From contig NC_030385.2 of assembly GCF_001625215.2 (NCBI RefSeq), positions 44,789,598 to 44,853,597 on the forward strand: a stretch of DNA of 64,000 nt. The letters are read 5' to 3'. Positions 3,034-41,136 of the stretch are shown here, piece after piece; position 1 is the first letter of the stretch, and each line of letters opens with the position of its first letter. The stretch is from Daucus carota subsp. sativus (taxonomy: Eukaryota; Streptophyta; Magnoliopsida; Apiales; Apiaceae). The translations under genes and the position numbers were made by a program. The notes under the pieces are model-generated. The model did not search any database. It saw only the letters and a list, made by a program, of their open reading frames with translations, and was not told where the DNA came from.

Positions 3034-3902
3034 TTGCCTGCAAACGAGAGAAGGCAAACATGAGCCATGTACTCGGAAAGAAAGAAAAAGAAGAAAAAGA
3101 AGCAAGCCCGAGTACAGAGGGCCGAATCGGGTCGGGCCAGCAGGACTCGACTAACCTAACCCTAGAAAGCCGACTCAGGCAACAAACATTCAAAACTCAA
3201 ACAAGAATTAAAGCACAAATAACACAATAAGTGGAGGAAGCGACGGCGACAAGTCACCGGTTATAAACTCAGAGACCGCCGGAAAACCCCTACTGCGATC
3301 CTGATCTACGACTACCAGTACAATGCAAGCACATAACAAGAACAAAAAACCCCCCAAAAATCGGTAAGCCGGCGGGACAACTCCTACCAGGAAAGAAAAT
3401 ACGCAAAGCAACAAAATACAGTGCACTAACATCTAGCAGCATCCTAAACATAAAGGATGATAACTGACAAAGAGGGGAGAACAACTTACTTGTCGTAGAA
3501 GAGATGTGGAGAAAACGGGTGAAAGAAGCCGGAAAAAGAACCACCGCCGGTTAACAACTATCGCCTGGGAGCAAGAAGCTTGAGAGAATGGAGAGTTGAG
3601 AGGAAAACAAGAGGATATTGGAAATATGAAAAGAAACGGGTGGTAATGATTTGTATTTATAAACGAATTGTGAAAAGGCGCGCCCTATTAATGGCACCCT
3701 TTGGAATGCACGGCCCAGATTCAGCGCGTATCTCGAGGCCACGCCATCCGGCGCCCAAACGACACCACGCGTCCATCGGACCAAGCATTTTGAAATCAGA
3801 CCGAAACAACTGCTCAGCTCCCACTACAGCCTCACCCTGTCGGTCGGTCAAAGACAACTTAGGCTTCGGCCGCGTTTGAAACCCGACCGAAGCCTGGGGA
3901 CA
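3034..3902. other. Non-coding stretch between antisense ORF and 3' LTR
   Basis: This probably holds the promoter and leader of the antisense ORF on the minus strand and the 3' untranslated region of the element on the plus strand. It ends in a purine-rich run (AGCCTGGGGACA) directly before the LTR, which fits a polypurine tract used for plus-strand priming. No host gene is seen. Confidence 0.55.
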
Positions 3903-4372
3903 TGTTGGGTTATAAGCCTTTCGGCCCAATCCATTACGGCCCAAAGCAGGTCCAGCCCACCGTTTGAACTTAAACGTTACTATGGCAACGGTCGAGGCGA
4001 GAGAATCCCGCCTCCTTTACTCATCATAACTTCCCTCCCGCATCGGGCGGGAACGTTACATAGCAGGGCTCCTCCTCCTCCTATAAAAAGTGGGTAAATC
4101 AGTGGTAAAATTCATTCACAACTTTATACATTCTTACATACTCGCTTGCAGTTCTCTAAACCCTTCCTAGAGCCACTAATTTATTCTCACACCGGAGGTG
4201 AATCGGGGGGACAAACCCTCGCATTCTTCTCTGTTTCAGGTCATACTTCGGCTTTGGTATCCGGCAGAACTTTGGCTCTAACAGATGAGTTCGTCGTGCC
4301 AACCTGTTAAAGTATGAATATTTATATGCAGTATATAAAGTATTCTTGGTTTCGACCATGTTGAATTCGACA
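3903..4372 (+). repeat. 3' LTR of the Tat/Retand-like element
   Basis: The LTR begins TGTTGGGTTATAAGCC right after the purine tract. It has a good TATA box (TATAAAAAG) at about 4082-4090 and ends in CA at about 4358 or 4372. Length is near 470 bp. The exact right end is uncertain because the partner LTR and the left target duplication lie outside the window. Confidence 0.7.
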
Positions 4373-5104: not shown

Positions 5105-7387
5105 ACTAACCTATATCGAATTGCTAACATCTCCGTCTGCTAGTTTACCGGGAGGAAGAGGGTTCAAAACCCTGATAATTAGATTGATAGTTTTGATTTT
5201 TTGATTAATCCGATTGAATATTTAAATATCTAAAATGGTTACTTAATATTAAATGACTAATTATTGGTTGTTGATTATGTGTTTATTAAAATTCTATCAT
5301 ATTTTTTAAACATCCTCACTCAAATATGCATTTTTTGAATTATAAAATAGGTTCTTAAATTGTCCTTGACTTTTTATGATATTGGCGAGAAAGACTCTCA
5401 CAACTAAAACTTCTCTCAAAATCTCTTATTTAAAAATCTATTTCCGGTCTTGGCAAAAAAAAAAAATCTATTTCCGGTCAAATAAAGTTCGTCGCCTAGT
5501 ATCGAATAAAAATATTGAGATCACGTCAACTTGAATTCGTCCTTAATAAGATCGTACTAACATTTTTAACAAGATGTTATTGAAAAAATTTTAACCAGCA
5601 AAATAGAACTGCCAAAAGAAAATATATCTGTTTTTATTTAAGTTAAATGCTTTTAACTTGGTATATAATCCAAAAAATATCATAACGTGTCTACAAGAAA
5701 GTAAGACGAAATTTCTCGCGATAAATGCCGTAACACTAGCCATGTAAATCTTAATCACAAGATTAAAAAGAAATCTAAAAATTAAATTAGTTAAAGTCGT
5801 ACTCGTCCTTGCCTATTTGGTAAAGGCGTTAGAGATTCTTTGTACGAAGACAGAATTATAATAGAAGTACGGAGAAGTATCTGAAATAACTCCTTTCAGG
5901 CCACCTGAAAAACCCTGGTTCAATGAACTCGAAACGATTAATTATTGTTACGTTATCTGTCTCAGATATTTTGCTCCTTAACAATTTACAGGCTCTGTCG
6001 TTTTGCTATATTACTGGAATAAACTAACAACCAGCCGCTACATACAATCTTCTGACAGCCAGATACGAAGTTTGAAATAGAAGCATTAAAAAAAATATAA
6101 AATGATACTATTGTTCTTGAAATGGATAAACAGCGAAATAAGTGCGAAAAGAATATTGCTGAATATACATGTTCGTCAAATAAAATAGACTGAAATAAGT
6201 GTACAAAAGTACGGGTAAATAATAATTATATATGCCTATGAGTGACCGAGTCATAAAACCAAAAAAAATCCTACAATAATCTAGATAAGAATGGATTATC
6301 CCGGAAGGTATCTTTTTAAATGTGCTCTTCTATGTGAATAAAAATTTAATATTTATATTATATTATATTATTATACATTATTTTTAATTGTTTGCTTTTT
6401 TAAAAATTATTTAATAATAAATTAATATATTTCGATAGTTGACTTGTTATTAGAGATGCAGATTCAAATATGAGCAATATCATTACTATTAAATATTTAT
6501 AATGTTAGGATGTGTTAAATATATGTCACTATATTCCTCGCACAAATTTATTATGTTATGTACAATTTTTTATAATCAAATATTTTAAAATCGTGTGATC
6601 AAAAAAATAAAAAAACTTAAAACTAATGCATATAATTTATTTTAAAAAGCCAATACAAAATAATTCTAAAACGAATTCGCTACTTAAAGTTCATACACGC
6701 AGCTAAACTGTTAAATTCATACCCGCTATAATAGTATCGAATCTCCGACATGTAATAATCAATTTGATTTGTAACGAAATTACAGTCCATCCCAATTAAC
6801 CACACGGTCATCAACCGCTCGGTCATCGACCCGTTACGAGATTTTTTCAGTCCCCAATTAATTCTAGGTGTTAACTAAGTTGTTGAGATGTTACAAATTT
6901 GATTTGAATCAACTGTATTCAATGTTTTTGGTTCATTTCAGTTACACCCTTTAAAACTCCCGTTACCCAATATTTTTGACAAGACATCCGTTACTGATTT
7001 AAACCGTTACTGATTTAAACGCGTGATAATTGGCAATTAACCATGCATTCGATACATACCCCTACCCTAGTTAACTCTGATTTTGTAAATGTGAAACGCT
7101 CGCGAAAAATTCAGCTATTTTAACTTATTCGAAAAATCTCAAACGGAACAAGAATATTACTATAAGCAAAGAAATCCGTGAGAAAGAGAGATTTGGTCAC
7201 AAAACTATTAAAATAGTTACATGGGATGTGGTGCGCATCTAAACAATATTTTGAGTTTTGTACACAAAACCCCTACCAACTTTACAAAAGGTAGTTTCCA
7301 AGAAACAAACTAATGTACATTTCTCATTTTATTGCAATTCTACTTTAACGCCCCAAGTTCATGCACCACACTTCACTACTCGTTATC
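5105..7387. other. Intergenic DNA upstream of the MYB gene
   Basis: 2.3 kb of AT-rich sequence without a supportable gene. Minor items are a repeated word AAATCTATTTCCGGTC near 5435 and 5464, and two adjacent copies of the 17-mer CCGTTACTGATTTAAAC at about 6987-7020. The last few hundred bases presumably hold the MYB promoter. Confidence 0.5.
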
Positions 7388-7395
7388 TATATATT
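7388..7395 (+). promoter_or_regulatory. Probable TATA box of the MYB gene
   Basis: TATATATT lies 123-130 bp upstream of the MYB start codon. That predicts transcription starting near 7420 and a 5' leader of roughly 100 nt. No other TATA-like motif is better placed. Confidence 0.55.
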
Positions 7396-7435
7396 CACAA
7401 CTCTCAAACTAAACCAACACTCCTCTTCACTTAAC

Positions 7436-7517
7436 TCCTCTCTCTCCCAACAAATCTCTCCCTCTCTCAACAAATCTCTCTCTCCCTCTCTCTCTCTCTC
7501 TCGTCTCTCTCTCTCTG
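7436..7517 (+). repeat. CT-rich microsatellite in the MYB 5' leader
   Basis: An almost pure pyrimidine run of CTCTCT and CTCTCCC words with two interruptions (CAACAAAT) ends directly at the ATG at 7518. CT-rich leaders of this kind are common in plant genes and may affect transcription or translation. Confidence 0.8.
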
Positions 7518-8225
7518 ATGGAACCGTTTAGCTTATGTTTATCTACAAACACTTCATCCGATTCATCATCATCCGACTCTTCGTTAAATGGAGCCAAGGC
7601 TCCGAGAGATGTGAACAAGCCCGAGAAGATTAAAGGCCCGTGGAGCGCGGAGGAGGACCGGATCCTGACCCGACTCGTTGAGCGATTCGGAGCTAGGAAC
7701 TGGTCACTCATAAGTAAATACATCAAGGGCCGCTCAGGAAAATCGTGTCGTTTAAGGTGGTGCAATCAATTAAGTCCCGATGTTCAACATCGTCCGTTTT
7801 CGCAAGACGAGGACGAGACTATTTTAGCGGCACATCAGAAGTACGGGAATAGGTGGGCCACTATTGCGCGGTTGCTTCCGGGGCGCACCGACAATGCGGT
7901 TAAAAATCATTGGAATTCGACGCTTAAAAGACGTCAACTCGACTCGGTTCAAACTCGATTTAACGAAAACGAGACAAATGATGTACAAATAAACCGGGGA
8001 GATTCGAAATGTGGGGTATCAGGATCATTGGACATGAATGTGGGCCCGGACGAGATTGATCCCATGACCACGCTGACGTTAGCGCCACCGGGTATGGGGA
8101 GCGGGTCGGACCGGGGAGGGGAAAACGGGCCGGAAGTGTTTTGGGATGTCATGAGAAATGTGATTGCGAGGGAGGTTAGGGATTACGTAACGACGTCGTT
8201 TCAGGAAGGTTCTGGTTATAGGTAG
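7518..8225 (+). CDS. R2R3-MYB transcription factor, subgroup 22 (MYB44/70/73/77) type
   Basis: A 235-aa intronless gene for a nuclear DNA-binding protein. R2 (about residues 40-88, [11 protein letters not shown]...[14 protein letters not shown]) has its three Trp. R3 (about 92-140, [12 protein letters not shown]...[17 protein letters not shown]) has the usual Phe in place of its first Trp. The near C-terminal motif [17 protein letters not shown] (about 208-224) matches the VMxxMIxxEVRxYM motif of Arabidopsis subgroup 22, whose members act in stress, ABA and auxin responses and are usually intronless. A degenerate TLTLAPPG motif (about 185-192) sits where related proteins have an LxLxL repression motif. 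The GLYMSPxSP motif of the subgroup is missing and the protein is shorter than MYB44 (about 305 aa). The start is the first ATG after the CT-rich leader, followed by a Ser-rich stretch. The family is certain; the exact orthologue is not. Confidence 0.95.
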
Positions 8226-8652
8226 GATTTTATTTAATTAAATGAAATTAAGCAAAATTATTTCTGGTGGGTTAATTATATTAAAGTGAAGTACGATGTA
8301 AAAGTACATAAACGGCCAAAGGGCCGGTTTAAAGTGAAGACTTTGTGGAGCGGTTTAATCACATTCTTCACGTGGATAAATATAAATTATATTATCCCTC
8401 CTTTTTCTCATCAAAAACAATGTGCAAATGTGCTGAACACTGTTGTGTTGTCCAGTAGTATATTGATTATTATGGTTGTGCAGTGTTCACATGTATCCGA
8501 AATTCAGAACTCATAAGCGTGATGAGATGAGATGATAAGATTAATTTCTGTTCTGTACTATTTTTTTTAATAGTTTCGGTTAGATTTTTGTTTGGACGGT
8601 TCTCTTCTTTTTATTACATTCGGACCTGACAAATAGAAGTGTTGTCTGTTGC
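8226..8652 (+). other. 3' flank of the MYB gene
   Basis: Probably the 3' untranslated region and terminator of the MYB gene. A 76-codon ORF here (8286-8516) resembles no family and is taken as chance. Confidence 0.5.
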
Positions 8653-8751
8653 CAGGGACGTATTTAGAGGTAGGCACTGATCTTCCCAATAGAAATTGTT
8701 TATTTGCTTTCATGGTTGAGGCGTGTTATGTTAATTCTGGCTCCATCCCTG
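8653..8751. mobile_element. Tiny hAT MITE, 99 bp, with 8-bp target duplication
   Basis: The ends are inverse copies (CAGGGACG at the left, the complement of CAGGGATG at the right). Identical 8-bp flanks TCTGTTGC lie at 8645-8652 and 8752-8759. The CAGGG end and 8-bp duplication place it in the hAT superfamily (Tip100-like ends). A 70-codon ORF running through it is not a gene. Confidence 0.88.
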
Positions 8752-8759
8752 TCTGTTGC

Positions 8760-10007
8760 GTTCATGTTTGGATCACTGTTTATATGATACTTTTTAGTAA
8801 AATAAATCTAATAAATGTTTATTATTTTGAAAACAAAAAATTATATTTTAGAAGAATATAAATAAAAGAAAGTCTTTAAAAAGAATATTAAAGGACAAAA
8901 TATAAAAAGAATATCTTTGATAGTTTAGAAAACATAATTTTAAGGTTTAAATATAAATTCTTGAATAAAATATCAAATTATAAATTATATTAACAACTAA
9001 AACATCTCCGTTCTTGACGGAAAGGAAGAGCATATCTGACGAGCTTTAGTACACTCTGTAACGGAAAAGAAATCACGGCTGTTGAACATACAATACAAAT
9101 TACAACGGGATGGATTTTTGTAGGATTTTTATTTTCGGTCGAAAATTGACTATTTTAACCATAAAACCCACCCCCGGCTAAATGGCTTAGGAGTTAGGAT
9201 GATTCAAGATATTCGAAATCAACTAGCACCGTTCCGCCAGTGCTATGATCAAATAATTCTGTTTTTTTCTCAAATATTAATTATATATAATACATCGTAT
9301 ATTGGAAATAAAAATGCTAGAGCTAAAAAAAAACATTTCATTTTTTCAAATATTAGTTAATGATATTTGATTGATTTTAATCACATTAATAATAATGATA
9401 CTGTGTGAGTAATCAATTAACTCTGTTAGTGCTCATTTTTATTTTTTTTTTGATTATTCTTAACTGCTACTATAGAATTTGGACTTAATACATACGGCTA
9501 AACATCGCATGTTTTGTGCAAGTAACGTTAATCAACCGTCGACCTCATACAAACCTAAAATTCAAAACAGTTTCGACCCTACTTTGACCTCAACATGTAT
9601 AAACATATTTAGAACGTTTTAAATTCTGAGCGATATGAATCCCTATCTGAATGGCTGAATGGGTACTGTTGTACTCCTACACATTCTGTCCCCAAGCAGT
9701 AACTGATATAAACATCTTCTGGACCGATACATAGAATTGCCATGATTTCATGCCACATATGTACGAGCATTTCTATTTTTCAATTATTTCGTTTTCAAGC
9801 ACGTGTACTTATTCAGTCCGTGGCCTCCGTGACAATTGATTATTTTTGCTTTTCAGTTATTTTCATTTCTAGTGCTGCTTGATTTAGTAGAGATGTATAT
9901 AAATTATAGTTTCATAATTTATTTTTATTTTCTTATAAAAAAAAATTAATGTAATTTAAAAAATTATATTTTATAGAAATATTAAAGTCCGTCGAACTCT
10001 TTGTCCT
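8760..10007. other. Intergenic DNA, no gene seen
   Basis: AT-rich sequence between the small hAT MITE and the large Mutator-like element. Nothing further can be supported. Confidence 0.55.
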
Positions 10008-10028
10008 AATATAAAAGGGGGAAATTAA

Positions 10029-10045
10029 ATGTACACAATTGTACA
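10029..10045 (+). repeat. Left terminal inverted repeat of the MULE (core)
   Basis: ATGTACACAATTGTACA is perfectly complementary to 14733-14749. The 12 bases outside it are less well matched but share a GGGGG start and a TTA. The 17-mer is itself nearly palindromic. Confidence 0.9.
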
Positions 10046-10107
10046 ACCCATTTTTACAACCAACAAATCGTGATCGTTGGTTGGGTGAGATCTACGGCGC
10101 TGGTTGC

Positions 10108-10375
10108 GTGCATCAGTGACTTAAAGTCACTGATCAGTGACTTTATATCACTGATGTCCCCTCCATAATTTCTTTTCCTATCATACCCTTACCGCATTAA
10201 TAACAACAGTGAGTTCAAGTCCCTGATGGTGTATACATTAATAACAACAGTGAGTTCAAGTCCCTGATGTGTACAATGTTATTTACATTTTTAATAAATG
10301 ATCCATACTTACGGGTCTTAATGTCTAAATGTATCAGTGATATTATATGAATTTCAGAAGAAAAAAAATAACTCT
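10108..10375. repeat. Left-arm palindromes of the MULE
   Basis: Two neighbouring palindromes lie at about 10111-10156: CAGTGACTTAAAGTCACTG, then a variant with TTTATATCACTG. They are followed by two adjacent ~43-bp copies of a unit containing CAGTGAGTTCAAGTCCCTG (about 10195-10270). The same palindrome family fills the right arm. Confidence 0.8.
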
Positions 10376-10399
10376 ATTTGTATTGAGATTTTATCAATC

Positions 10400-13300
10400 A
10401 AGTAGTGGTTTGTTATGGTTTCAAAAAAAAAAAAAAAGTAGTGGTTTGTTTGACTTGTACTATTATCGTGTACTTTATCATGTATTGCTCTTTAAATTTT
10501 TTAAAAAATATTGATCAATGATCTAACCGTACGGATGTGAAGATGTATATATTTTGATGCTAATTAAGAAGAAGTTCCAGGAAAAAATAATTATATTTGG
10601 ATTGAGATTTCAGCAGTCAACTAGTGATTTGAGTTGTACCAGTATCTAGTGTTTTATCATGTATTACTGCTTATATTTTTTTAAAAAATATTTCTGGATG
10701 ATCCATCCGTACGGATGTGAAGATTTATATATTTTGATGATATTATTAAAGTTTTAGAAAAATATAATTATATTTGGATGGAGAGTTTAGCAGTCAATTA
10801 GTGGTTTGACTTGTACTAGCATCCAGTGTTTTATCATGTATTACTCCTTACATTTTTTTAAAAATATTTTTGGATGATCTAACTGTACGGATATAAAGAT
10901 TTATATATTTTGATGATATTAAAAAAATTTCAGAAAAAAATAATTTTATTTGGATGGAGAGTTTAGCAGTCAACTAGTGGTTTGACTTGTACTTGCATCT
11001 TGTGTTTTATCATGTATTACAGCTTACATTTTTAAAAAAATATTTCTGGATGATCCAACCGTACGGATGTGAAGATTTATATATTTTGATAATATTAAAA
11101 AAGTTTCTGAAAAAAATAATTTTATTTGGTTGGAGAGTTTAGCAGTCAACTAGTGGTTTGACTTTTAGAAGCATCTAGTGTTTTATCATGTATTACTGCT
11201 TACATTTTTTTAAAAATATTTTTGGATGATCCAACCGTACGGATGTGAAGATTTATATATTTTGATGATATTAAAAAAATTTCAGAAAAAAATAATTTTA
11301 TTTGGATGGAGAGATTAGCAGTCAACTAGTGGTTTGACTTGTACTAGCATCTAGTGTTTTATCATGTATTACAGCTTATATTATTAAAAAAATATTTCTG
11401 GATGATCCAACCGTACGGATGTGAAGATTTATATATTTTGATGATATTAAAAAAGTTTCGGAAAAAAATAATTTTATTTGGATTGAGAGTTTAGCAGTCA
11501 ACTAGTGATTTGACTTGTAGAAGCATCTAGTGTTATATCATATAATACTGCTTACATTTTTTTGAAAATATTTTTGGATGATCCAACCGTACGGATATCA
11601 ATATTTATATATTTTGATGATATTAAAAAAATTTCAAATAAAAATAATTTTATTTGGATGGAGAGTTTAGCAGTCAACTAGTGGTTTGACTTGTACTAGC
11701 ATCTAGTGTTTTATCATGTATTACAGCTTATATTTTTTTAAAAAAAATATTTATGGACGATCCAACCGTACGGATGTGAAGATTTATATTTTTTGATGAT
11801 ATTAAAAAAGTTTCAAAAAACAAATAATTTTATTTGAATGGAGAGTTTATTAGTCTACTGACTACTAGTGGTTTAATTTGCACTAGCATCCAGTGTTTTA
11901 TCATGTATTACTGCTCACATTTTTTAAAAATATATCTGGATGATCCAACCGTACAGATGTGAAGATTTTTATATTTTGATGATATTAAAAGAGTTTTAGA
12001 AAAAAATAATTTTATTTGGATGGAGAGTTTAGCAGTCAACTATTGGTTTGACTTGTACTAGCATTTAGCGTTTTATCATGTATTATTACTTACATTTAAA
12101 AAAAAATATTTTTGGATGATCCAACCGTACGAATGTGGAGATTTATATATTTTGATGATATAAAAAAACTTTCATAAAAAAATAATTTTAGTTGGATGGA
12201 GAGTTTAGCAGTCAATAGTGGTTTGACTTGTACCAGCATCTAGTGTTTTATCATGTGTTACTGCTTACATTTTTTTAAAAATATTTTTGGATGATCCAAC
12301 CGTACGGATGTGAAGATTTATATATTTTGATGATATTAAAAAAGTTTCAGAAAAAAAATAATTTTATTTGGATGGAGAGTTTAGCAGTCAACCAGTGGTT
12401 TGACTTGTACTAGCATCTAGTGTTTTATCATGCATTACAGCTTACATTTTTTAAAAAATATTTCTGGATGATCCAACCGTACGGATGTGGAGATTTATAT
12501 ATTTTGATGATATAAAAAAAAATTCATAAAAAAATAATTTTATTTGGATGGAGAGTTTAGCAGTCAACTAGTGGTTTGACTTGTACTAGCATCGAGTGTT
12601 TTATCATGTATTACAGCTTATATTTTTTTAAAAATATTTCTGGATGATCCAACCGTACGGATGTGAAGATTTATATATTTTGATGATATTAAAAAAGTTT
12701 TAGAAAAAAATAATTTTATTTGGATGGAGAGTTTAGCAGTCAACTAGTGGTTTGACTTGTACTAGCATTTAGCGTTTTATCATATATTACTATTCACATT
12801 TTTTAAAAAATATATCTGAATGATCCAACCGTACGGATTTTAAGATTTATATATTTTGTTGATATAAAAAAAATTCATAAAAAAATAATTTTATTTGGAT
12901 GGAGAGTTTAGCAGTCAACTAGTGGTTTGACTTATACTAGCATCTAGTGTTTTATCATGTATTACTGCTTACATTTTTTTAAAAATATTTTTGGATGATC
13001 CAACCGTACGGATGTGAAGATTTATATATTTTGATGATATTAAAAAATTTCATAAAAAAATAATTTTGTTTGGATGGAGAGTTTAGCAGTCAACTAGTGG
13101 TTTGACTTGTACTAGGATCTAGTGTTTTGTCATGTATTACAGCTTAAATTTTTAAAAAAAATATTTCTGTATGATCCAACCGTACGGATGTGAAAATTTA
13201 TATATTTTGATGATATTTAAAAAGTTTCAAAAAAAATAATTTTATTTGAATGGAGAGTTTAGCAGTCAACTTGTGGTTTGACTTGTACTTGTAACGTGAC

Positions 13301-13650
13301 ATTTATCATGTATTTGTGTTTCTATTTTTTTTGAAAATATTTCTCGACGATCCAACCGTACGGATGTCAAAGTCTATATATTTTGATGATATTAAAAAAG
13401 TTTCAGAATAAAATAACTATTTTACGTTTGAAATCTTAACAGTCACTAGTGGTTTGACTTGTATATGTAAGTAGTATTTTATCATGTATTGTCGTTTCAA
13501 TTTTTTAAAAATATATCTCGATGATCCAACCGTACGGATGTCAAAATTTATATATTTTGATGGTAATTAAAAAGTTTTAGAAAAAAATAATTTTTTTTGT
13601 TTGATATTTAAATAGTCAACTAGTGGTTTGACTTGTATTTTGGTTATTCG
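10400..13650. repeat. Tandem array of about 18 units of ~176 bp inside the MULE
   Basis: The landmark CCGTACGG (a few variants) recurs at 10527, 10707, 10883, 11059, 11235, 11411, 11587, 11766, 11949, 12125, 12300, 12477, 12653, 12829, 13004, 13180, 13356 and 13530. Spacing is 174-183 bp, mostly 176. Each unit also holds the words GGATGGAGAGTTTAGCAGTC, TGGTTTGACTTGTACTAGC and TGTTTTATCATGTATTAC. Units at both ends are more diverged than the middle ones, as in a satellite-like array. No unit codes for protein. Confidence 0.93.
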
Positions 13651-13939
13651 TAGGTAAAATTATTTTTCAAAAATATGTCTGGATGATAATAAAAAATATA
13701 AATTATATTATTAGTTATAAGTGATGAGTTTTTATGTCAAGCAAAATAATCATTTAATTTGAAAAGATAATATGTGTTGTGTTGAACTTGTGCAAAATTC
13801 CATCCTTTTCATTTTATTATTGTTCTTAAAAAATTACGGACTTAATTTTTTTCGTTAATTATAGATATAACGAAGCTCCTATACCTTATGTTAATCAAAT
13901 GCTAAACAAGAATCAACATTTTTTTTTAAGTTTTACTTA

Positions 13940-14720
13940 AAATCATGTCAGTAACTTGAAGTCACTAGTATTTACTTGGAATTTTTTTTTCCCGTGTCGC
14001 TTATTTGTTATTTGAGATTCTTTCCAAACCTCTAAATTAATCTCCAAAATTACAACAGTGACTTGAAGTTACTGATTTTCTTTACTTAGAATATTTTTTC
14101 CAAAATTACGCATTAGTGACTTCAGCTCACTAATGTTCTTTACTTAAAATTTCCAGCCCTCTAGTTTTGGGAAGCTTCTTTAACGATTTCATCAGTGACT
14201 TAAGGTTATGAATATCCCCAGAATTATATTAGTGACTTCAAGTCACTGATGTTTTTGACTTAGAATTTTTTCCAGCCCTCTAGTTTTGGGGAGCTACTGT
14301 AACATTTTTATCAGTGACTTAAGGTCAGGGATATCCCCAGAACTATAACAGTGACTTGAAATCACTGATGTTTTTTACTTAAAATTTTTTCCACCGCTCT
14401 AGTCTTGGGAGCTAATATAACGATTTCATTTCATCAGTGACCTTATTTATGAATTTTTACTAGGTAGTTGGGGTGTTGGTACATTGTTGGCTGATGTAAA
14501 TTAAATGCAACATCAGTGATTTCATGTCACTGAAGGTGAGAGGGATAATACCGACATTTTAGGTTTTTCGCTCAACATCGGTGACTTCCAGTCACTGATT
14601 AGTGACTTGAAGTCACTATCGTAGCTATTTAATATTTTTTTCATGCGTTCGGAAGATCATGTCACTGATGTACTTCATTTAATGCACACCATTAGTAAAT
14701 TCAAGTCACTGATGGTGTAC
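13940..14720. repeat. Right-arm palindromes of the MULE
   Basis: About twelve copies of a ~20-bp imperfect palindrome, consensus AGTGACTTGAAGTCACT, recur between 13948 and 14715 at 40-100 bp intervals. Examples are near 14056, 14229, 14350, 14580 and 14600. Between them a ~110-bp background (CCAGCCCTCTAGTTTTGGG...) is itself repeated three times (about 14153, 14273 and 14392). Confidence 0.85.
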
Positions 14721-14770
14721 ACCTACCTTTCCTGTACAATTGTGTACATGTAACCGCCCCCAATATAAAA

Positions 14771-16010
14771 TAGTTAAGAGGGTGGGGAAAATATTATCCT
14801 TACAACGCCTGAAAACAGAAAATAAAACAAAGAGCTGAAATATATCAAATTAAATCAACATACTCGATACATTTTGTTTAAGATCACATCCGGGAAATAT
14901 CAGACTATTCTATTAGATAATGATAAAGAGGCTATACATAATAAATTTTTATTATATATATACTAAATTTTAAAGATAAAAGCTAAAAATTATTTTATAT
15001 TAATCTTTATGCTAAACATGAGTTTCAGTAAGAATTAGCTTCTCTTAACATGGAACCTGAATGTGGCATGATCATGGACTATAAAAGAGAATAACAAGGT
15101 CTACACGACTTTGACCACTCGTTTTCATGTTTATGTCACCATTATTTAAATTTGCAACGCTGATAATTAGTTAATTAAGGGGAATTATGAGAAGATAACA
15201 GGAAAAGGCATGTAATTACAAGTCCTTAAAAAGAAGTTTCGGTCAAACCTAACGTTAGGTCTTGTGCCTAACAGCAAGGTGGTTAGTTTGTTATTATAAG
15301 GAAGCCATGCATATATGTCGATGTCGCAAATTATAATTAACGGAGCATAATGTTAGGTTCTTTGATAGAAGATGTGCTTTCAAAAACTTACAGACAAGGC
15401 ATCACGTTTACAGTTCATTCCACCTGAAATGTACAGTACCCACGCATGTATCAAACAGTTGGATGATAGTAATTTAGAGTAGAGATTGTTAAAGGGATTT
15501 TTCAGACACATGTTAATAAATATTGGTTAGATTGACATATTTTTATTGTCTCAATTTTAGTCTATAGTCTTCAACGTTTGATGATTATCTTTTTAAATTT
15601 TATATGTCAATCATAATATTGGCTAGATATAATATTCCATCAAACTAAAAAAAAATATTTGTCCACGACCACACTCCAAACACCCGATATTTAATTCCTA
15701 ACTCTGCCCAGTCATCCGATCAACGGAGGATTAATGGACTACGTCCTGTACAAGAATATTTATATTTAATTAAATAAATATTATCTAAATTTTATATTTT
15801 TAAAGCTACAAGTCCTAACTATCGACTGAACTTTCACTTTTAAACTTAAAATTAGTTTAATATATTTGAATCCAGTTAAAAGATCAGAATCAATTCAACT
15901 ATATATTAAAAAAGGTTGAATTATATACATACAAATAATATTTAATATATTTGAAAATCATATCAACAAAAGCTTGATCATGATCATAAACTTAGGCTGT
16001 GTTCACTTCA
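14771..16010. other. Intergenic DNA, no gene seen
   Basis: AT-rich sequence. A word of about 45 bp beginning TCTATAGTCTTCAACGTTTG (about 15550-15595) recurs as a direct repeat at about 16586-16630; its origin is unclear. Confidence 0.5.
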
Positions 16011-26164: not shown

Positions 26165-29121
26165 CTAGGTAGCGAGAGGATTATGGACTTGTCCGATGAA
26201 CTGCACAACTCCGGTCATGTCTTCTCTGATAAGGAAGAGAAATGGGCGGTCTGCAACAAAGTCGATCTTATCGAACATTTGTAAAGACCTCAGTTTTATG
26301 ACACCAGCTGATGCAGCAGCAGCTTCTGTGCCTTCTTCGTTGACTTCGATGAAGGATTTGTGGAATATGCTTGAAACATACAGCTTTTGACCCATAGGAG
26401 AATCCACCATCTCGGTAAGACCGTCACCGGAGAAGGGCAAAACCAGCCCTAGTTCCTTTAAGACTTCCGATGCTTCGAAGCCAAATGAGATTTTGAATTT
26501 GGGAATGCGGAAGTCGCCAACTTCTACTTTCTGGTATGGAATATGGCGCTCGAGGAATCCAGCTACTGAACCAACTTCCTCCACTAATTTCGGCAACCCA
26601 TCTTTTGCATCTGGAAGAAAGAAGTACATGGAAAATTGGCGTTTGTCACCTCCTTGTTTATAAGGAAGCCCCAACACTTTGAAACCATCAAATGCGCTGA
26701 TCAATTGCTTTTTCTTGCTGGTCATGAAGGGAACTTGAATTGAGCTACCATCGAGGAGGTGAAACTCATCCTCTTTAGTAGTGGATGCATCAAACTTGTC
26801 AGTCCATGCTCCTTTAAAATAGAGGGCGTTGGCAAAAACAAGCCTAGTTGAGCTGTCAACTGATCCAGAAGGAAGAATCTCTTTGATAAGGCCATTGGTC
26901 TTCTTTTCAGCCCACGAGTTCACTGAATTGGTCACTTCAGTAGCCTGTATGCAGATATATACACATAGTTAAAATAAACAGTACGACCTATACACCATAG
27001 GAACATTAATACAATGATACAAACATAGAGGACCAAAAACAGAGGATCTTGGGGAGAATCAACTAGAACCAAATGCAAATTATTCAAATAATGACCTTAA
27101 GGAACTCTTTAAGCATAATTGTATTTGACAAAGAAAGATTCACATAAGCATAACTTGTACATCGAACTAGTCATTTTATGTCCATTATTATTGATTCCTG
27201 ATTATAGACGGTTATTACTATGTTATTAATAAATATTAAAAGCAGACAAGAGATTGCAAATAGAGTGCATATGTAGAGAAAGTAGCTACATCACAGCACC
27301 ATCATGTAAAGAATAGGCCCTCCACATTTATCTATGAATAACGGAAAGTAATTTGGGGTCCATTTGTGGTGTCATATAACAATAATTTTATTATAAGACA
27401 AATTAAAAAGTAACAAGTAACAACTAAAGGATAACATAAATGGCTAGCATACAACATTACCCTACAAAGATAACAATCAAGAACAGACTCCATAACATTT
27501 TCCATAAGAGCCCTAGAAAATAATTTCATAAAAGAATAATCAAGTAGCTTTCGCGTCGTAAACTAAGTAGTACTATAATTGCAAAAGAAGAAAAGAACCA
27601 CAGACACAAACTACAAAGAAGCAGGGACAAACACACAAAGGATCATATTGGTTAGTTACATACAGTATAAGTTAAATAATCCTTATTCACGGGGTCAATT
27701 GATTAACTTCTGTTTACTTAAGGGAGACGATTAATGTTAAGGTGCAAACAATACAAAAACAAACATTGGTACATGAATGTAGAAATTGTTCAATTTTTCA
27801 GTAAAAGAGTAAAATTTAAGAACATCTAATTCCTTTGTACAGAAATCTGTATTCAGTGATGCAACATCTCATATTCAGAAGCAATAAGGCCTAAGGCGGA
27901 CGCAGTTCTGGAGGGTCTCCCACATCACACAACTGCAGCCCGCAATGCACGGATTTGTTTTTGGGCTCTTCCCAAAAGAGCCCATACTAATGGAATTGTT
28001 TGACTGCTTACGACGTGTGACTTGGTCGACAACCACTCAACAGTTAACTTTTGATATAAAAACCAATTCTATTACAAGTCAGCATATCATAATAAATATT
28101 TTTCGAGGGGTTGCCATTAATCTCATCAGGTAAACAGCATTATCACTTCTTCACGCATATAGCAGTATCATTCCTACCTCATAATGCATCTAATTAAACC
28201 TTGGGTTTACTCCATCATTCTGACTAGTTATATTATATCCCTAAATTGAATATCGAAAAACTGGAAAACAAAACATGATCATTAGGCGTGATAGGCTGAT
28301 GTTTAATAATTTTTCCCGAGCAATTGTTAGCATATCTGAAGACTGAAGTCTGTTTATCCCTCATAGGAGTCAGAATAATCAGCCAATCATGTAATTTCTA
28401 TTTCCACAAAGCAACCTCTCTTCAATTACAACTTTTTCACGCATTTCTCAAATGTACTAATTGAAAATTAAGAAGTATCCGAGATGTGGGCAAAAGCATC
28501 CTAGTGCTATAAGAGTTCAAGAATCAGATCTCCCCCAGTCCCCCTCCCATCTATACTCGAAACAAGATACAGCAACTACCAAAAATTAGAAATATCAGCA
28601 TCATCCAATTCATACAAATCTAAATATCTAACACCATCAAAACCAACACAAACAAGCAACATAAATAAACATGATTGCAAACACAAATAAAATCGAAAAA
28701 TTAGTATTAAAAAAAAAACCCAACCAACCTTGGTCTGAAAATCAACATGAAGAGAAGCAGCCTTATACACCCCTTCCACCACCTGTTTAAACAAGGGCTT
28801 AAGAGCAAGAGACTCATCAATCCAGACCCCATTAGCAAAACTCACACAAGGCCCACCAGACCCAGACCCATCAGCAAACACAAGATCAACCAACTGCCCA
28901 GACAAAGAATTAAGATCATCACTTGACCCAGCTTTAAGAAAAGACAGAAGCTGCTTTTGGGTCTGTGCAGATGATCCAGCTGTGATCAGACCAAGAACTA
29001 CATGAACAGAAAGAGGGGAGAAGACAGTGTTTGAGTGGCTGTTATTGTTGTTTAGTAGTATGTGTTTTGCAAGTGTGAGGGAGACATCAGTTTGGTTCTT
29101 GATTGATTGTCTTAAGTCCAT
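26165..29121 (-). CDS. Serpin SRP-A, Arabidopsis Serpin1-like with IKLR loop
   Basis: A two-exon serpin (29121-28729 and 26944-26165; 390 aa, the usual plant size) with the intron where plant serpins have it, in phase 0. Serpins trap proteases by presenting a loop that the target cleaves. The start [20 protein letters not shown] matches the family N-terminus better than an in-frame ATG 14 codons upstream. The hinge [10 protein letters not shown] is the canonical small-residue hinge of an inhibitory serpin. The loop ...VIKLR/SLQ has the P4-P1 residues IKLR of Arabidopsis Serpin1, which inhibits metacaspase 9 and the papain-like protease RD21. The C-terminus [19 protein letters not shown] is the standard serpin end. 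No signal peptide is seen, so it is probably cytosolic. It is the most conventional member of the cluster. The intron is 1784 bp. Confidence 0.95.
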
Positions 29122-30959: not shown

Positions 30960-33605
30960 GCGAAAAAGAAGGGGTCAAAATTTGCTCCACAAGATCATTC
31001 TTTGAATCAATTGAATGTTTTAACATATTTTTACAAAGAAGTAACTAATCATATGTACTTACAGTTTCATAGTTGTCCTCGACGATTTTTCATATGCTGA
31101 AACCGCTGGATAATTGATTCATTTAGCACACCATCGAACACTGCTTTTTCAATATATGTAACGAGACTATCATTCAGCAGCTGATCTCCCATCCGATTCC
31201 TTAGCCTACTTTTCACAATCTTCATTGCAGAGAATGCTCTTTCAACACTTGCAGTAGAAACTGGTAATATCAGTGCCAATTTTATAAGTAAGTAGATCAA
31301 AGGATATACCATGTCCTTCTTTGTTTGAACTAACTTTTCTGCAAGAACAGCGATCCCATTTAAAATTAAAAATTCATTGTCAGACCGCATATCAAAAATA
31401 TAAGTACCCAACTGGTTTCCCAACATCATAAGCTCTACTGAGGAGAAGTCGTTTGGATAAAATTGAGCCAGCCGAATTAATTTTTTCTTGTCAAAAGCAG
31501 CAAATGCATCATTTGGACTCAAACAGGACATACAAAGCAGTAGTTCCATGTTAGATTCATTAAAACGAGTGTTGAGCTCTTGAAGTTGCATATCCAAAAC
31601 ACCATAAAAGAATTCCACCTTATAATAATGTATATTTGTAACCTGGTGCACTTTACGTCGAGAACGTCCTTTCATTTGAAAATTATCTTCCATGTTTGGG
31701 CAAATGATATTAAATTTCTCACAGAACATAGAAACTTCTGCTAATAAATCATCCCAGCCATCATCCCTTAGCATTTGTATCCTTAACTTTGATAATTTCA
31801 CTAATTTCATTGCATTCACAATATCCTGGTCTTTTCTTTGCAACGAAATCGATAATTCATTTGTAATGCCCAAAACATTCTTCATTAAGTGCAAACTATA
31901 AACAAAATCAAAAGATTGTACAAACTCCAACAAAGCAGAGGCTTCAGCTCTTTGTTCAGAACTCGGGCCATCATCAACAATAGTATCAAGAACATCAATA
32001 ACAGATTCAAACATATTAATAAGAGATAGAAGTGTACCATAATGTGAGCCCCATCGTGTATCTCCGGCTCTTTTCAGAGTTGTTTCCTGATTTAATCCAT
32101 GTCCACTTGCAAGTTCTCCAATTGCTAATGCTTCATATATATGAATAGCTTGACGATCTCGAAGTATATCTCGACGCTTACAAGAAGCTCCAACAACATT
32201 CACTAAATTTGCAATCATGTTAAAGAGGCTCCCAACATGAACATTATTTTTAGCAATAGCAACTAATGTGAGTTGGAGTTGGTGAGCAAAACAATGGATG
32301 TAATGAGCTGATTCATTTTCTCTCATAATTAAACTTTTTAAGCCATTAAACTCCCCCCTCATGTTACTCGCCCCATCGTAGCCTTGTCCCCTTATCCTGG
32401 ATATACTCAATCCATGCTTGGCAAACAATGAATCAATGCATACTTTAAGTGACGCAGCATTTGTATTGGGAACATGTGCAATACCAATAAATCTCTCAAT
32501 TACATGACCTCTTTTATCAACATACCTCAAGATAACAATCATTTGTTCTTTCACTGATATATCACGTGATTCATCAATCAAAATAGCAAACAAATCATCT
32601 CCTAAATCATGAATAATATAATTAAGAGTTTCTACCGCAGAAGCATTGACAATGTCATGTTGAATGTCTGGAGACGATATCTTAAGATTGCCAGGAGCAT
32701 TTTTCCCAACAACTCCATCAATTTCCTTATTATGTGCAGCCAGAAATTTTAATATTTCAAGAAAATTTCCTTGATTTATTGATCCATCAGATTCATCATG
32801 ACCACGTAAAGCAATACCTTGTCTTAAAAGAAAACGGAGACAATCAACTGAAGCACCCAAACGAATTCGATATTCATTTTTAATCTGCTCTGAATGCCTA
32901 TTTAATGTCACATCTATATGCTGATTTTGTTTCATCAAATCTTCACATTTTCTCCGGGCTTGATTATGTCCACTGTTAGGACCTCCTACGTGCAAATCTA
33001 ATCTCTCTTTTTTGTTCCAAGCATCAAAACCCTCTTTAACAAAAGCATCCCCACTTTGTTTATTATCAGACTTAAAAAGATAACAATACAGGCAAAACGC
33101 AGCTTCTTTTTCTACACTATACTCCAACCACAATTTATATTCATTGAACCAATTAAGATTGAAACGTCGTAACAAATTCTCAATTTTACGTTTCTTAAAA
33201 TTATGAGATGGTTGACATGCTCCTTTCTGTAAATAAGCTCTTCTTACCTTATCTTTGAGATTGGGATGATAATCTGAAATTGGAATTCGCAACCCGGGAT
33301 CTGCAGGAAGGTTGCCCAATTCAACTTCTTGTTCTTCAACGGGAGCTCTGCTTCTTGTTACAAACTTATCCATTCTTGTTTTGTGCTTTAGTGGGTGGGT
33401 GAATATTGTAAAGTGGTAGGTGAAAAGTAGAGGGGAGTGGGTTTTGTTACTTTAGTCTTTACTGCTTTATTTTTTGTTTATACAGAGGGGTCAACCCAAT
33501 TTTTAATAAGGGTTCAAAATTTATTATAATAATAATTATATACATAAAATTAAAATTTTTATGGGTTCAAGTGACCCCTATATCATGGCCATAGCTACGC
33601 CTCTG
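30960..33605 (-). mobile_element. hAT transposon with open transposase gene (left end unresolved)
   Basis: The transposase gene at 31067-33373 is followed on its 5' side by a typical hAT end at 33586-33605, which reads CAGAGGCGTAGCTATGGCC on the minus strand. The words GGGGTCAA and its inverse occur near both ends (about 30975 and 33567), as in Tip100-like hAT elements. I could not find a matching left terminal repeat, so the left boundary given is only a guess. Confidence 0.7.
31067..33373 (-). CDS. hAT transposase (TTF zinc finger, DUF4371, hAT dimerisation), 768 aa
   Basis: A single open frame of 768 codons. The N-terminus has a TTF-type zinc-finger region (about 70-150, WLEYSVEKEAAFCLYCYLF). 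The body is the DUF4371 region typical of 'zinc finger MYM-type protein 1-like' transposases. The likely acidic catalytic triad is Asp267 (ILIDES), Asp333 (GQGYDGASNM) and Glu711 (STASVERAFSAMK). The C-terminal hAT dimerisation region is at about 700-745. Such enzymes excise and insert hAT elements and leave 8-bp duplications like the several seen nearby. It lies between SRP-A and SRP-B in the same orientation as both. The frame is unbroken and all three acidic residues are present, so it may still be functional, though activity cannot be judged from sequence. It could instead be host-domesticated; the neighbouring transposon end argues against that. Confidence 0.93.
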   Translation of the reverse strand: MDKFVTRSRAPVEEQEVELGNLPADPGLRIPISDYHPNLKDKVRRAYLQKGACQPSHNFKKRKIENLLRRFNLNWFNEYKLWLEYSVEKEAAFCLYCYLFKSDNKQSGDAFVKEGFDAWNKKERLDLHVGGPNSGHNQARRKCEDLMKQNQHIDVTLNRHSEQIKNEYRIRLGASVDCLRFLLRQGIALRGHDESDGSINQGNFLEILKFLAAHNKEIDGVVGKNAPGNLKISSPDIQHDIVNASAVETLNYIIHDLGDDLFAILIDESRDISVKEQMIVILRYVDKRGHVIERFIGIAHVPNTNAASLKVCIDSLFAKHGLSISRIRGQGYDGASNMRGEFNGLKSLIMRENESAHYIHCFAHQLQLTLVAIAKNNVHVGSLFNMIANLVNVVGASCKRRDILRDRQAIHIYEALAIGELASGHGLNQETTLKRAGDTRWGSHYGTLLSLINMFESVIDVLDTIVDDGPSSEQRAEASALLEFVQSFDFVYSLHLMKNVLGITNELSISLQRKDQDIVNAMKLVKLSKLRIQMLRDDGWDDLLAEVSMFCEKFNIICPNMEDNFQMKGRSRRKVHQVTNIHYYKVEFFYGVLDMQLQELNTRFNESNMELLLCMSCLSPNDAFAAFDKKKLIRLAQFYPNDFSSVELMMLGNQLGTYIFDMRSDNEFLILNGIAVLAEKLVQTKKDMVYPLIYLLIKLALILPVSTASVERAFSAMKIVKSRLRNRMGDQLLNDSLVTYIEKAVFDGVLNESIIQRFQHMKNRRGQL

Positions 33606-35177: not shown

Positions 35178-37133
35178 TCAAGTAGGATTAAGCACCTGTC
35201 CAATAAATTGCACACTTCCGGTATTGTTTTCTCTGATGACGAACAAGAATGGGTGGTCTGCGACAAAGTCAATATAAGCTATTAGACATAATCGAACTTT
35301 AGAAACAGATGCAGCAGCAGCTTCAGTGCCTTGTTCATCAACTTCAATGAAGGATTTATGAAATATGCGAGAAACACAGAGCTTTGGACCCACAGGAGAA
35401 TCCGCCATCTCGGTAAGGCCATCATTCCTGGTAAAGGGCAAGACCAGGCCTAGTTCCTTTAAAACATCAGATGCTTCAAACTCAAATGAGAACTTAAATT
35501 TTGGAACGTGGAAGGCGCCAACTTCTACTTCCTGATATGGAATATGGCGCTCCAGGAATCCAGGTACGGAACCAAATTTCTCTACTAATCTGGGCAACCC
35601 ATCTTTTGCATCCGGAAGAAAGATGTACATTGAAAATTGGCGTTTGTCACCTTGTTTATAAGGAAGCCCCAACACTTTGAAACCGTTGAAAACCCTGATC
35701 AATTGCTTTTTCTTGTTGCTGGTCATGAAGGGGACCTGAATTGAGCTGCCATCGAGGAGGTGGAACTCATTGTCTTTTGTCCTGGATGCATCAAACTCGC
35801 AACTCCATGCTCCTTTAAAATAGAGGGCGTTGGCAAAAACAAGCTTAGTTGAGCTGTCAACTGATCCTGAAGGAAGAATCTCTTTGATAAGGCCCTTAGT
35901 CTCCTTTTCGGCCCAGGAATTCACTACATTTCTTGCGTCTTCCTCCTGAAAAGAGCGGAAAAATTAAATCACATCACCTACATTCATATGACAAATATAA
36001 TGACGAACCACATATGACCTTAAAAAATAGTATGTATTTATCATAAATTGAAACAAGAGTATGTTATTAGCAAAAAAAACAAAGACAGGAAACAGAGGTA
36101 TGCAGAATTTCGTATAGATTGTGTAGCTTAATACAATTCCAAACCAAGTAGAATTCTGAAATGCTGCATATATAGTACTAAAGTAAATCTATCTTACTGC
36201 AGAAAAATTTGTCCAAAATGGGAAAAACTAATTTTATAGTTCTCTGAAATTCTCAGTTCAACACATTGTTCTCTTCAATTGAATTTTAGCGCATAATACC
36301 CAAATATTGATTTCCCTGATTCAAAATGCCTGAAATTCATCACCACTGCCGCGTATAAATAACACTTTACAAAGGTTGTCCCGGGCCCGGGTTCGACTCA
36401 TCCGAAAAGTATTAGAACATTTGTAACGCATATAAGCCTGCATTGTCAAAAAAAAAAATACTCCCTCCGTCCCTTTTTACATGTCCCTTTTGAAATTTTT
36501 TTTTGTCCCAAATTACTTGTCCACTTCTCTTTTCAAAGCAACTTTTTGTATGTTTTTTCAAAATGTAACAACTTCCAATGTTTGACTAGCATATATATAT
36601 ACACAACTCTATCTAATTCATTACATTTATTAGGGATATGTATGAAAACAAGATATCCACCTAACATTTTCTTAAGATGCGTTATTTTTTCAAAAGGGAC
36701 AAGTAAAAAGGGACGGAGGGAGTATATAAAAAATACTGTATGAAGTGGCCCTCACCTTGCTTTCAAAATCAACCTGACGACATGCGGCTTTGTACACAGT
36801 TTCAACAACCTCTTTGAAAGAAGGCTTGAGAGTGAGTGACTTCTGAAGCCAAACACCATTGGCTAAGGACAAACAAGGACCACTGGAGGAGGAATCTTTG
36901 GCGAAAACCCGATCGACGATACTTGAATAAAGATAGTTAAGCTCATCTATAGTTCTGGCATTAAGAAAAGAGAGAAGTTGATCAAGGGTTTGGCCACTCG
37001 AACCAGCTGCAACCAAGCCAAGAATAACTTGTATGGAAATTGGAGAGAAGACAAGGTTTGAATCTTTGCCATAGTTTAAAAGAATGTGCTTTGACAGGTT
37101 TAGTGAAACATCAACTTGTTCTTGTTGAGCCAT
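35178..37133 (-). CDS. Serpin SRP-B, apparent hybrid of C/E-type exon 1 and A-type exon 2
   Basis: A two-exon serpin (37133-36756 and 35945-35178; 381 aa) with intact frame and GT-AG junction. Exon 1 (MAQQEQVDVSLNLSKHILLN) is nearly identical to SRP-C/E, with only a few changes. Most of exon 2 ([32 protein letters not shown]-like stretch) follows SRP-A. The very end (RENNTGSVQFIGQVLNP) again resembles C/E. The hinge GTEAAAAS is canonical. The loop is VSKVRLCLIAYI, three residues shorter than in SRP-A, with Cys at the predicted P1 (RL/C/L). The upstream ATG used in SRP-C/E is TTG here, so the start is MAQQ. The 810-bp intron holds a Stowaway MITE. It is likely a cytosolic protease inhibitor with altered specificity, but its target is unknown. 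Confidence 0.92.
36461..36722. mobile_element. Stowaway MITE, 262 bp, in the SRP-B intron
   Basis: The left end CTCCCTCCGTCCCTTTTTAC is matched inversely by the right end GTAAAAAGGGACGGAGGGAG. TA flanks both sides (36459-36460 and 36723-36724). The near-perfect ends show a younger copy than the one at 4936. SRP-C/E introns lack it. Confidence 0.93.
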
Positions 37134-39389: not shown

Positions 39390-40339
39390 AAACACTACAA
39401 CAGATTCAGCATCACACAACGGTTTTTGCCCGTTGTCTGAGACCACGGAAAACCGTGGTCTATCGAGACGCCGTCCGATATGCGTATCAGACAACGGTGC
39501 GCACCGTTGTGTGATAGTGCTGAACACGATGGTTTACGTTAAAAAAATTATTGTGCAACACCCAGAACCAACAACCTTTTCTCTTAAACGTGGTGTTGTT
39601 AGAAACTCTTCATTACAATAGTTGTTTTCAAAAATGATGTTGTTAGAGAGGATATCCACAACAGTTTTTGGATATATTTACTTGTTAATAAGAGTATCAG
39701 ACAAGATTGTTTGCGTTATAGAGGCTTGTGTTTTAGTACCTTGCACAACTGGTTTAGAGTACTGGTCACTTGTGTAAAGCTCCTTATAACAATAGTTTAT
39801 ATAATGAAACAATTGTGTGAAAGCTCTTCTACAACGGTTTTTGTCCCGAATGCTCGAATAATATTGATTTAGACAATGGTTTGTTACTACTATATACTTA
39901 TTTGTATATGTCTTAGACAACGATTTTATTCTTAAAATTGTGTTGTTTGTGGGGCCTGAGACAATACTTTTTATCACAGTAACCATTGTATAATGTTGTT
40001 TATAACAATTGTCATTTACATGTCTCATTAGTTAAAAATATCATAGACAATGGTTTTACCACAGTGACCATTGTATTATGTAACTTGTAACAATGGCCAT
40101 TTCATTGTCCCATTAGCTAAAAGTAAAACCATGAATCAAATAAACTAGACTAGACAATATAATTAACAATGCCAAAAATTGGTAAACAAAAGTTTTCATT
40201 ACCATCATAACAACCAACCAAGTACAAACAAAATATCAATTACCAATATCCACCAACTAAATATCCACCAACTAATTATATTTACCAACTAATATTCACC
40301 TTTCAACCAACAATTCCATCCAACAAACATACGGATTTA

Positions 40340-41070
40340 TACCCTGCTTCTAACTCATCTTTATACATTGATCGTGCCTTTTCCCATGGTCGTTCATTGA
40401 TTGACTCTTCCCATATTACACGATCTCCCTTGCACTGTTCGCAAGTATTCATTCCCTGTAATTGATAAACACTTACAATTAAAGCTCTTAATAAGATACA
40501 TAACGGAAAATAGATAGCTTTCTATATATTTATATCGACAATCAATATGGACTATGAACTTTATACCTAACAGAAATACAGAACTTGTAACACGGATTCT
40601 CCAACAGAAATAGGCTAAAGGCATTTATGTAGCATTAGGTCACTAAAAAATATTTGAAGTACTATAATATCTTTGCATTTTATATTTTGCACTATTTATA
40701 TGCAGAAAAACAATACTGTCTATAGTCAAGACCGTGTATTCCATTTTCATATCAAATAAGATACATAAATAAGAACAGGGCAAAAATACATGTAGAAATA
40801 GAAGCTAGAAAATAAAATTGAAGAATGCACATATCTCTTGGTCTCTCTACCAAGTTTAGTACTGGTCAACATGTATATTAAAGCAATTCATAACTAGTAA
40901 ACGATTCAATATTTACCTTGCCATCACACTGGGAACAATCTTTTTTAGATTTTTCTATTCCGCATTCTGTACATAAGAGTGTAACCTGTTCCCCTGCAAC
41001 TTGGGCAAGGCAGTTCCCTTATATACAAAACCACGACCTTGGCTTTATAGTGACAGAATCTGAAGTTTCC
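40340..41070 (-). pseudogene. Captured fragment of a Cys-rich (CxxC) host gene, two exons with intron
   Basis: Two exon-like pieces lie inside the CACTA element. Piece 1 (41070-40917) has [20 protein letters not shown] and a GT donor (GTAAAT). Piece 2 (from 40455 to about 40340) follows an AG acceptor in matching phase and reads GMNTCEQCKGD, then VIWEESINERPWEKARS. The repeated CxxCxG pattern resembles the zinc-binding Cys-rich region of DnaJ-like proteins, but I do not recognise the parent gene. One in-frame stop is seen in piece 1. The retained intron shows that genomic DNA was captured, not cDNA. Confidence 0.65.
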
Positions 41071-41136
41071 CTGAGATTGAAACATGTGACAAAAGAATGT
41101 CAAATCACAGGTAGCATAATATTTTAGATTAATACA

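Follow-up and report, generated by a model that had tools for sequence, protein, structure and literature searches.

A 176-bp tandem array carried as cargo by a non-autonomous Mutator-like element of carrot

Introduction

How satellite DNA is born is a long-standing question that has mostly been read from end products. DNA transposons bearing tandem arrays are by now well established. In Chenopodium quinoa, a CACTA element of 16.5 kb that is present in several copies, dispersed according to fluorescence in situ hybridization, holds 32.5 monomers of 171 bp (PMC8978399). In the VANDAL21 elements of Arabidopsis, non-coding tandem repeats have amplified the site targeted by the anti-silencing protein VANC21; motifs of VANC6 are found in AT9TSD1 as well, an unrelated element (PMC5735166). 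Satellites have arisen in miniature inverted-repeat transposable elements (MITEs) and Helentrons, as reviewed for Xenopus miDNA4 and oyster CgHINE (PMC9659126), motifs resembling the CENP-B box are common to different satellites of Meloidogyne nematodes (PMC3694981), and the centromeric repeat of carrot, CentDc, is built of ~40-bp monomers in a higher-order repeat (PMC8259371). Here we describe a Mutator-like element (MULE) at positions 10017-14761 of a 64-kb stretch of the carrot genome (Daucus carota subsp. sativus, C5:44789598-44853597; hereafter the window), which carries an array of 176-bp units containing a box of about 20 bp, GATGATCCAACCGTACGGATG.

Our comparisons with these systems refer to the available excerpts of the papers cited above. 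Like the carrot element, the quinoa element is a DNA transposon with an internal satellite array and multiple copies; however, it is a CACTA element and not a MULE, its printed 171-bp monomer lacks the box as judged by eye, and the excerpts give no series of growing arrays. VANDAL21 resembles the carrot element in being of the MULE type and in having non-coding tandem repeats that accumulate a short motif and both gain and lose units, but its motif is 9 bp long and unrelated, whereas the carrot box is also found in CACTA elements and the carrot ends are inverted repeats. As with miDNA4 and CgHINE, a satellite unit has been amplified in a non-autonomous DNA transposon and spreads with it, although those elements belong to other superfamilies. 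The Meloidogyne satellites likewise have a short motif conserved across different repeats; they differ in coming from nematodes and in that the excerpts place them in no transposon context, and the motif letters were not compared. CentDc, finally, is also a carrot tandem repeat, but here the unit is 176 bp and lies in dispersed elements rather than at the centromere.

The words 'tandem' and 'satellite' are absent from the main text of a survey of carrot MITEs (PMC8227079). No published description of the MULE family was found in literature listings of partial coverage, so that an earlier description is possible, and the box letters, in five spellings, were not found in the literature searched, most subscription papers being outside its coverage. 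The MULE array series and the shared box thus appear new to us. Many stages can be seen side by side in one genome, namely an 8-unit array in a coding element, arrays of 9-29 units that moved as cargo, a 4-unit block present twice in one copy and once in its sister, and an array of ~81 units with higher-order structure, all of them still bracketed by transposon ends. Of these observations, we judge the shared box to be the lead most worth following.

Results

The window element is a non-autonomous MULE. A perfect 9-bp target duplication (AATATAAAA; 10008-10016 and 14762-14770, 9/9 matches), already recognized in an earlier note made from the sequence alone, flanks it on both sides, and its assignment to the Mutator-like elements in that note is borne out by a relative with the same ends that encodes a PF10551 transposase (see below). 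The terminal inverted repeats (10017-10045, plus strand, and 14733-14761, minus strand) are 29 nt long and 86% complementary. The earlier description of 17-bp inverted repeats holds for the perfect inner part only, because the full ends consist of GGGGG, seven variable bases and 17 perfect bases (ATGTACACAATTGTACA). Compared with those of maize Mu elements, which are long, these ends are short. No open reading frame (ORF) of at least 60 aa with an ATG, GTG or TTG start overlaps 9900-14900, in agreement with the claim that the element holds no gene. With respect to a Pack-MULE identity, the interior consists of the array and of blocks common to the relative on C8, in addition to lacking such an ORF, and no search was made for non-coding gene fragments. 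The palindrome CAGTGACTTnAAGTCACTGA (up to three mismatches), a feature absent from the earlier note, matches at 13 places, all within the element, four near the 5' end (10113-10267) and nine near the 3' end (13948-14712), while no match was found elsewhere in the 64-kb window or in 100 shuffles; these subterminal palindromes look like putative transposase binding sites. A subterminal tandem repeat of 119 bp (14112-14429, plus strand; 2.7 copies by Tandem Repeats Finder, TRF) has similar repeats (72-76%) in the transposase-bearing relative.

The array itself (10448-13637, plus strand) belongs to subfamily A and contains 18.1 units of 176 bp with 18 boxes resembling GATGATCCAACCGTACGGATG, the first at 10517. 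It occupies 3190 of the 4745 bp of the element (67%), so that both the unit count of about 18 and the share of about two-thirds given in the earlier note stand. Its remark that the unit length is close to that of many plant centromere satellites says little about function: a length of ~176 bp is uninformative as to centromeres, and the CentDc monomers, according to the excerpts, are ~40 bp. TRF reports a single period of 176 (87% matches, score 4627) and no shorter subperiod of ~40 bp as in CentDc, the letters of which were not aligned. A centromere satellite identity based on length alone was therefore rejected, and nothing supports a centromeric role of the 176-bp unit.

A coding relative of 14.6 kb lies at C8:28896549-28911160; it shares the ends of the window element and is flanked by a 9/9 target duplication. 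It encodes an 843-aa protein with FAR1 and MULE transposase (PF10551) domains (E 8.4e-29; C8:28898165-28900693) and a 407-aa protein with a plant mobile domain (PMD; E 1.1e-68; L073:2900-4123, minus strand), a transposon-related domain that, according to the available excerpt, also acts in Arabidopsis gene silencing (PMC5418596). Eight boxes near its 5' end mark an 8-unit array, which ends ~1.4 kb upstream of the PMD ORF and runs in the same direction. Pfam scans of five ORFs of this element returned MULE, FAR1, ZSWIM, two hAT models, PMD, DUF7745 and a weak HROB; no VANC-type gene was identified in these scans, which did not include a VANC profile. The weak HROB match (OB-fold, sub-threshold, E 0.02) comes from a 224-aa ORF at L072:3807-4481 (plus strand), and a hAT fragment also lies within the element. 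The regions of the C8 element that align to the window element, at 72-88%, are 1-1800, parts of 5851-9428, parts of 13161-14318 and 14343-14613, whereas the stretches of the PMD frame (3039-4262) and the transposase frame (10466-12997) have no counterpart in it. From this alignment, the window element reads as an internal-deletion derivative that lacks both coding blocks.

The genome (441 Mb in 11 contigs, nine of them large) was searched with the two ends and with the array, and the two kinds of search gave concordant sets of places. The listed array matches (part of 288, and 100 of the 1517 box matches) were grouped by hand into 36 clusters, of which 29 have both family ends, seven have one and none has neither; members of the family that had come up by way of their ends (L023, L031, L033, L039, L064, L068) were not counted, being unable to test this question. 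Thus in the count of arrays within and outside MULE ends that the earlier note had suggested, no free array independent of a transposon was found among the matches listed. Among the 33 clusters having a 5' end, the distance from that end to the array is 257-404 bp in 30; on the other side, the array stops 0.97-1.20 kb short of the 3' end in 21 of the 32 clusters having one. A 5' end match was missing in two of the 32 end pairs examined (L033, L047/L046), and these were set aside; among the remaining 30, the target duplication is 9/9 in 18 and 8/9 in two more, compared with six and 25, respectively, of 870 mismatched pairs. The element at C3:50424005-50462814, to which the cluster at C3:50459516 belongs, is apparently split by inserted DNA, its outer ends still having a 9/9 target duplication.

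Because the DNA searches score only the best candidates, the completeness of this list was estimated from counts. A control segment of the unit, GTCAACTAGTGGTTTGACTTGTA (23 bases, up to three mismatches), has 660 matches genome-wide (reversed control, 3) and is nearly as frequent in the family loci read as the box (373 versus 383). At 176 bp each, 660 units would take up 116 kb, close to the 134 kb that the 36 clusters span with some insertions included; the control-segment matches listed (100 of 660, from C1, C2 and C3 only) lie within family clusters as judged by eye. By this estimate, which is not a proof, nearly all close units therefore seem to sit in family elements.

The array moves whole, as cargo of the element, because sister copies on different chromosomes share their arrays nearly unit for unit. 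In three sister pairs (L013/L015, L018/L019 and L024/L027) the arrays are largely colinear with ~1% divergence; the first two match unit for unit at 0-3% in all but one unit each, and the units of the third match in order apart from a duplicated 4-unit block. In each pair the two copies sit on separate chromosomes, and each copy has its own target duplication (9/9 in five of six, 8/9 in L027). More broadly, of 270 units from 15 subfamily-A elements, the nearest unit lies in another element for 218 and in the same element for 36 (16 tied), and nearest units differ in relative position by a mean of 0.108, versus 0.335 for random units.

The array also changes in length within the element. Units 8-11 of L024 recur as units 12-15, and its sister L027 holds this block once. 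The smallest family members have two or three boxes (L023, L033, L064). At the other extreme, an 18-kb element at C2:26765149-26783013 (9/9 duplication, lying in a TA repeat) has at least 74 exact boxes over 14.3 kb (C2:26765920-26780226, the 2.8 kb between this stretch and the 5' end having been read for the smaller part), or about 81 units as judged from box spacing. The 3 kb of it that were read contain recurrent 160-bp units and a block that reappears six units further on; this is a higher-order pattern as in true satellites, in a long homogenised array that is nevertheless inside an element.

The 176-bp unit is one of a larger group of ~175-bp repeats, not recognized in the earlier note, that have the box in common, some of them in CACTA elements. 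The box has 1517 matches in the genome (up to three mismatches over 23 bases; reversed control, 0). Of 70 matches to a box-variant pattern, 48 fall outside the family clusters; they occupy 41 places, spread over all of the nine large contigs except C8. All four outside sites that were read (L075, L076, L077 and L078) are short arrays at ~175-bp spacing carrying the box. Next to the arrays of L075 and L076 are ends of the CACTA type, on which their assignment is based. L077 and L078 (C5:10257001-10259801 and C9:25461183-25463983) are two copies of one unplaced element with three or four box units of ~175 bp, followed, as judged by eye, by an apparent second, shorter repeat and a promoter-like stretch. 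The window itself contains a CACTA-type element with the same box (39393-44928); it has CACTACAACA at both ends and a 3-bp duplication, AAA on both sides, which is weak evidence in A-rich DNA. Its three boxes (43156, 43744 and 44336; 43156-44358, plus strand) differ from the MULE box at 3, 3 and 6 positions, respectively, and lie in direct repeats of 588-592 bp instead of at the ~175-bp spacing of the four outside sites. ACAACG-type subterminal repeats were also observed in this element.

Compared with the family unit, the four outside sites match only locally, at ~70-77% over ~40-125 bp, and more closely over some shorter stretches. Measured against the family consensus, the box has an identity of 0.83-0.88 in four sets (L075, L076, L077 and the window CACTA element, L078 not being included), versus 0.58-0.63 for the rest of the unit. 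When units of the same outside array are compared with one another, the box is more conserved than the remainder in L076, in L077 and in the latter combined with L078. Within subfamily A it is moderately better conserved, at 0.955 versus 0.927 for the rest (0.933 versus 0.865 at G/C sites), even though it contains two CpG sites, a kind of site that tends to be lost quickly in plant transposons. In L076, BLAST finds local similarity of ~100 bp around the box, with E down to 5e-13, and old common descent of the box-bearing repeats is therefore possible.

Discussion

Taken together, these data make it very probable that the window element derives by deletion from a MULE family whose array is carried as cargo and altered between moves. 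Derivatives of this kind would have lost the coding blocks and kept the ends, the subterminal palindromes and the array. A transposase supplied in trans, presumably binding the palindromes, would then move the whole element with its array and produce the 9-bp target duplications, and between moves the array would be altered by block duplication and loss, through unequal exchange or slippage. Such a process could yield the members observed, from two or three to ~81 units, with a higher-order pattern in the largest. The proposal in the earlier note that satellites spread from such elements is upheld insofar as the array is integral to the element, is dispersed by transposition and changes length inside it; the seeding of free satellites is unsupported, because no array was seen outside elements and the largest (~14.3 kb) lies inside the 18-kb element.

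Several observations weigh against this reading. A 9/9 duplication is missing from 12 of the 30 end pairs (among them L022, a void case in which the same end was matched twice), and two of the 18 perfect duplications fall within TA repeats, which readily give matches by chance. Seven of the 36 clusters have one end only; in addition, the ends of the cluster at C3:31403049 are 13 and 22 kb away and the 5' end of that at C3:50459516 is 35 kb from the array, both of which we take to be elements split by insertions. The best-candidates-only scoring of the DNA searches is illustrated by a 1.6-kb array query that missed its own source array. The block difference between L024 and L027 could reflect loss in L027 as well as gain in L024. 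Finally, the C8 transposase has one genome copy at 100%, its next relative by score is only 62% identical, and no other transposase-bearing family member was seen by eye among the best 150 of 813 MULE-domain candidates. Another transposase may have moved the window element, since the latter is only 72-88% identical to the C8 element over the shared blocks.

As to why the array persists, we lean slightly towards neutral hitch-hiking, in which repeats born by slippage in a non-coding stretch are passively carried and the shared box reflects descent from one old repeat. The number of units varies freely between copies and within sister copies, as this would predict, and the similarity of L076 beyond the box fits common descent. 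Neutrality alone, however, leaves unexplained why the box should be the best-kept part in different transposon types and why the ~175-bp spacing should recur at four sites.

Alternatively, the array may be selected cargo, the box being a putative binding site of a transposon- or host-coded protein with an anti-silencing or regulatory role and a large number of boxes being of benefit to the element, by analogy with the VANC targets in VANDAL. This is a serious possibility that we nevertheless rate as somewhat short of probable. It is consistent with the better conservation of the box in subfamily A, with the difference in identity between the box and the rest of the outside units, and with the position of the C8 array upstream of the PMD ORF in the same direction. 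It is also consistent with the genome-wide excess of the box over a control segment equally frequent in family loci (1517 versus 660), from which ~850 boxes are estimated to lie outside the family, a figure that is the difference of two counts and not a direct count. Precedent exists in the VANC21 targets of the VANDAL21 tandem repeats and in the VANC6 motifs of the unrelated AT9TSD1 (PMC5735166, available excerpts). If the box binds a protein, this would explain why certain repeats multiply inside transposons. On the other side, the sites read are four of the 41 outside places, and the box identity at these sites is inflated because all were picked by exact match to the box variant. The identity of 0.58-0.63 outside the box is within the shuffled range (mean 0.50-0.55, largest 0.62-0.65), in L075 the rest of the unit is conserved at least as well as the box (0.887 versus 0.864), and the box has no known binding protein.

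A wider form of the same idea, which we regard as doubtful, is that the box is a putative genome-wide protein-binding module. It would have been taken up and multiplied separately by the MULE family, by CACTA elements and by at least one unplaced element, mostly at a nucleosome-like spacing of ~175 bp, since a host or transposon binder would aid escape from silencing or expression. If so, transposon-borne satellites would amount to tandem copies of one common binding site, which in plants would correspond to the CENP-B box or the VANC targets.

That a pre-existing satellite locus was framed by MULE ends by chance, or that a MULE recently captured a free satellite, is very improbable: related short ~175-bp arrays with the box do occur outside the family (48 of 70 variant matches, at 41 places), and an old capture is possible, but the absence of any listed close cluster without family ends (0/36) led us to reject chance insertion of the ends around a free satellite, whole arrays are common to sister copies, the transposase-bearing relative holds its array at the same place, and the merely local match of the four outside sites to the unit argues against recent capture.

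Other features of the window

On the left side of the MULE, at a distance of ~1.8 kb, a 235-aa ORF (7518-8225) has two Myb DNA-binding repeats. A 768-aa ORF at 31067-33373 contains DUF4371 and a hAT dimerisation region and represents a hAT-type transposase. A serpin cluster occupies 26165-61064 on the minus strand, where all six ORFs scanned (26165-26935, 35178-35924, 45460-46218, 49375-50124, 54228-54989 and 58140-58892) match Pfam Serpin with E 2.5e-57 or better. Two TRF rows with the same consensus (46943-47318 and 55714-56089) lie ~8.77 kb apart, and the serpin ORFs at 45460-46859 and 54228-55630 are near-identical, which together point to a recent tandem duplication of ~8.8 kb in the cluster.

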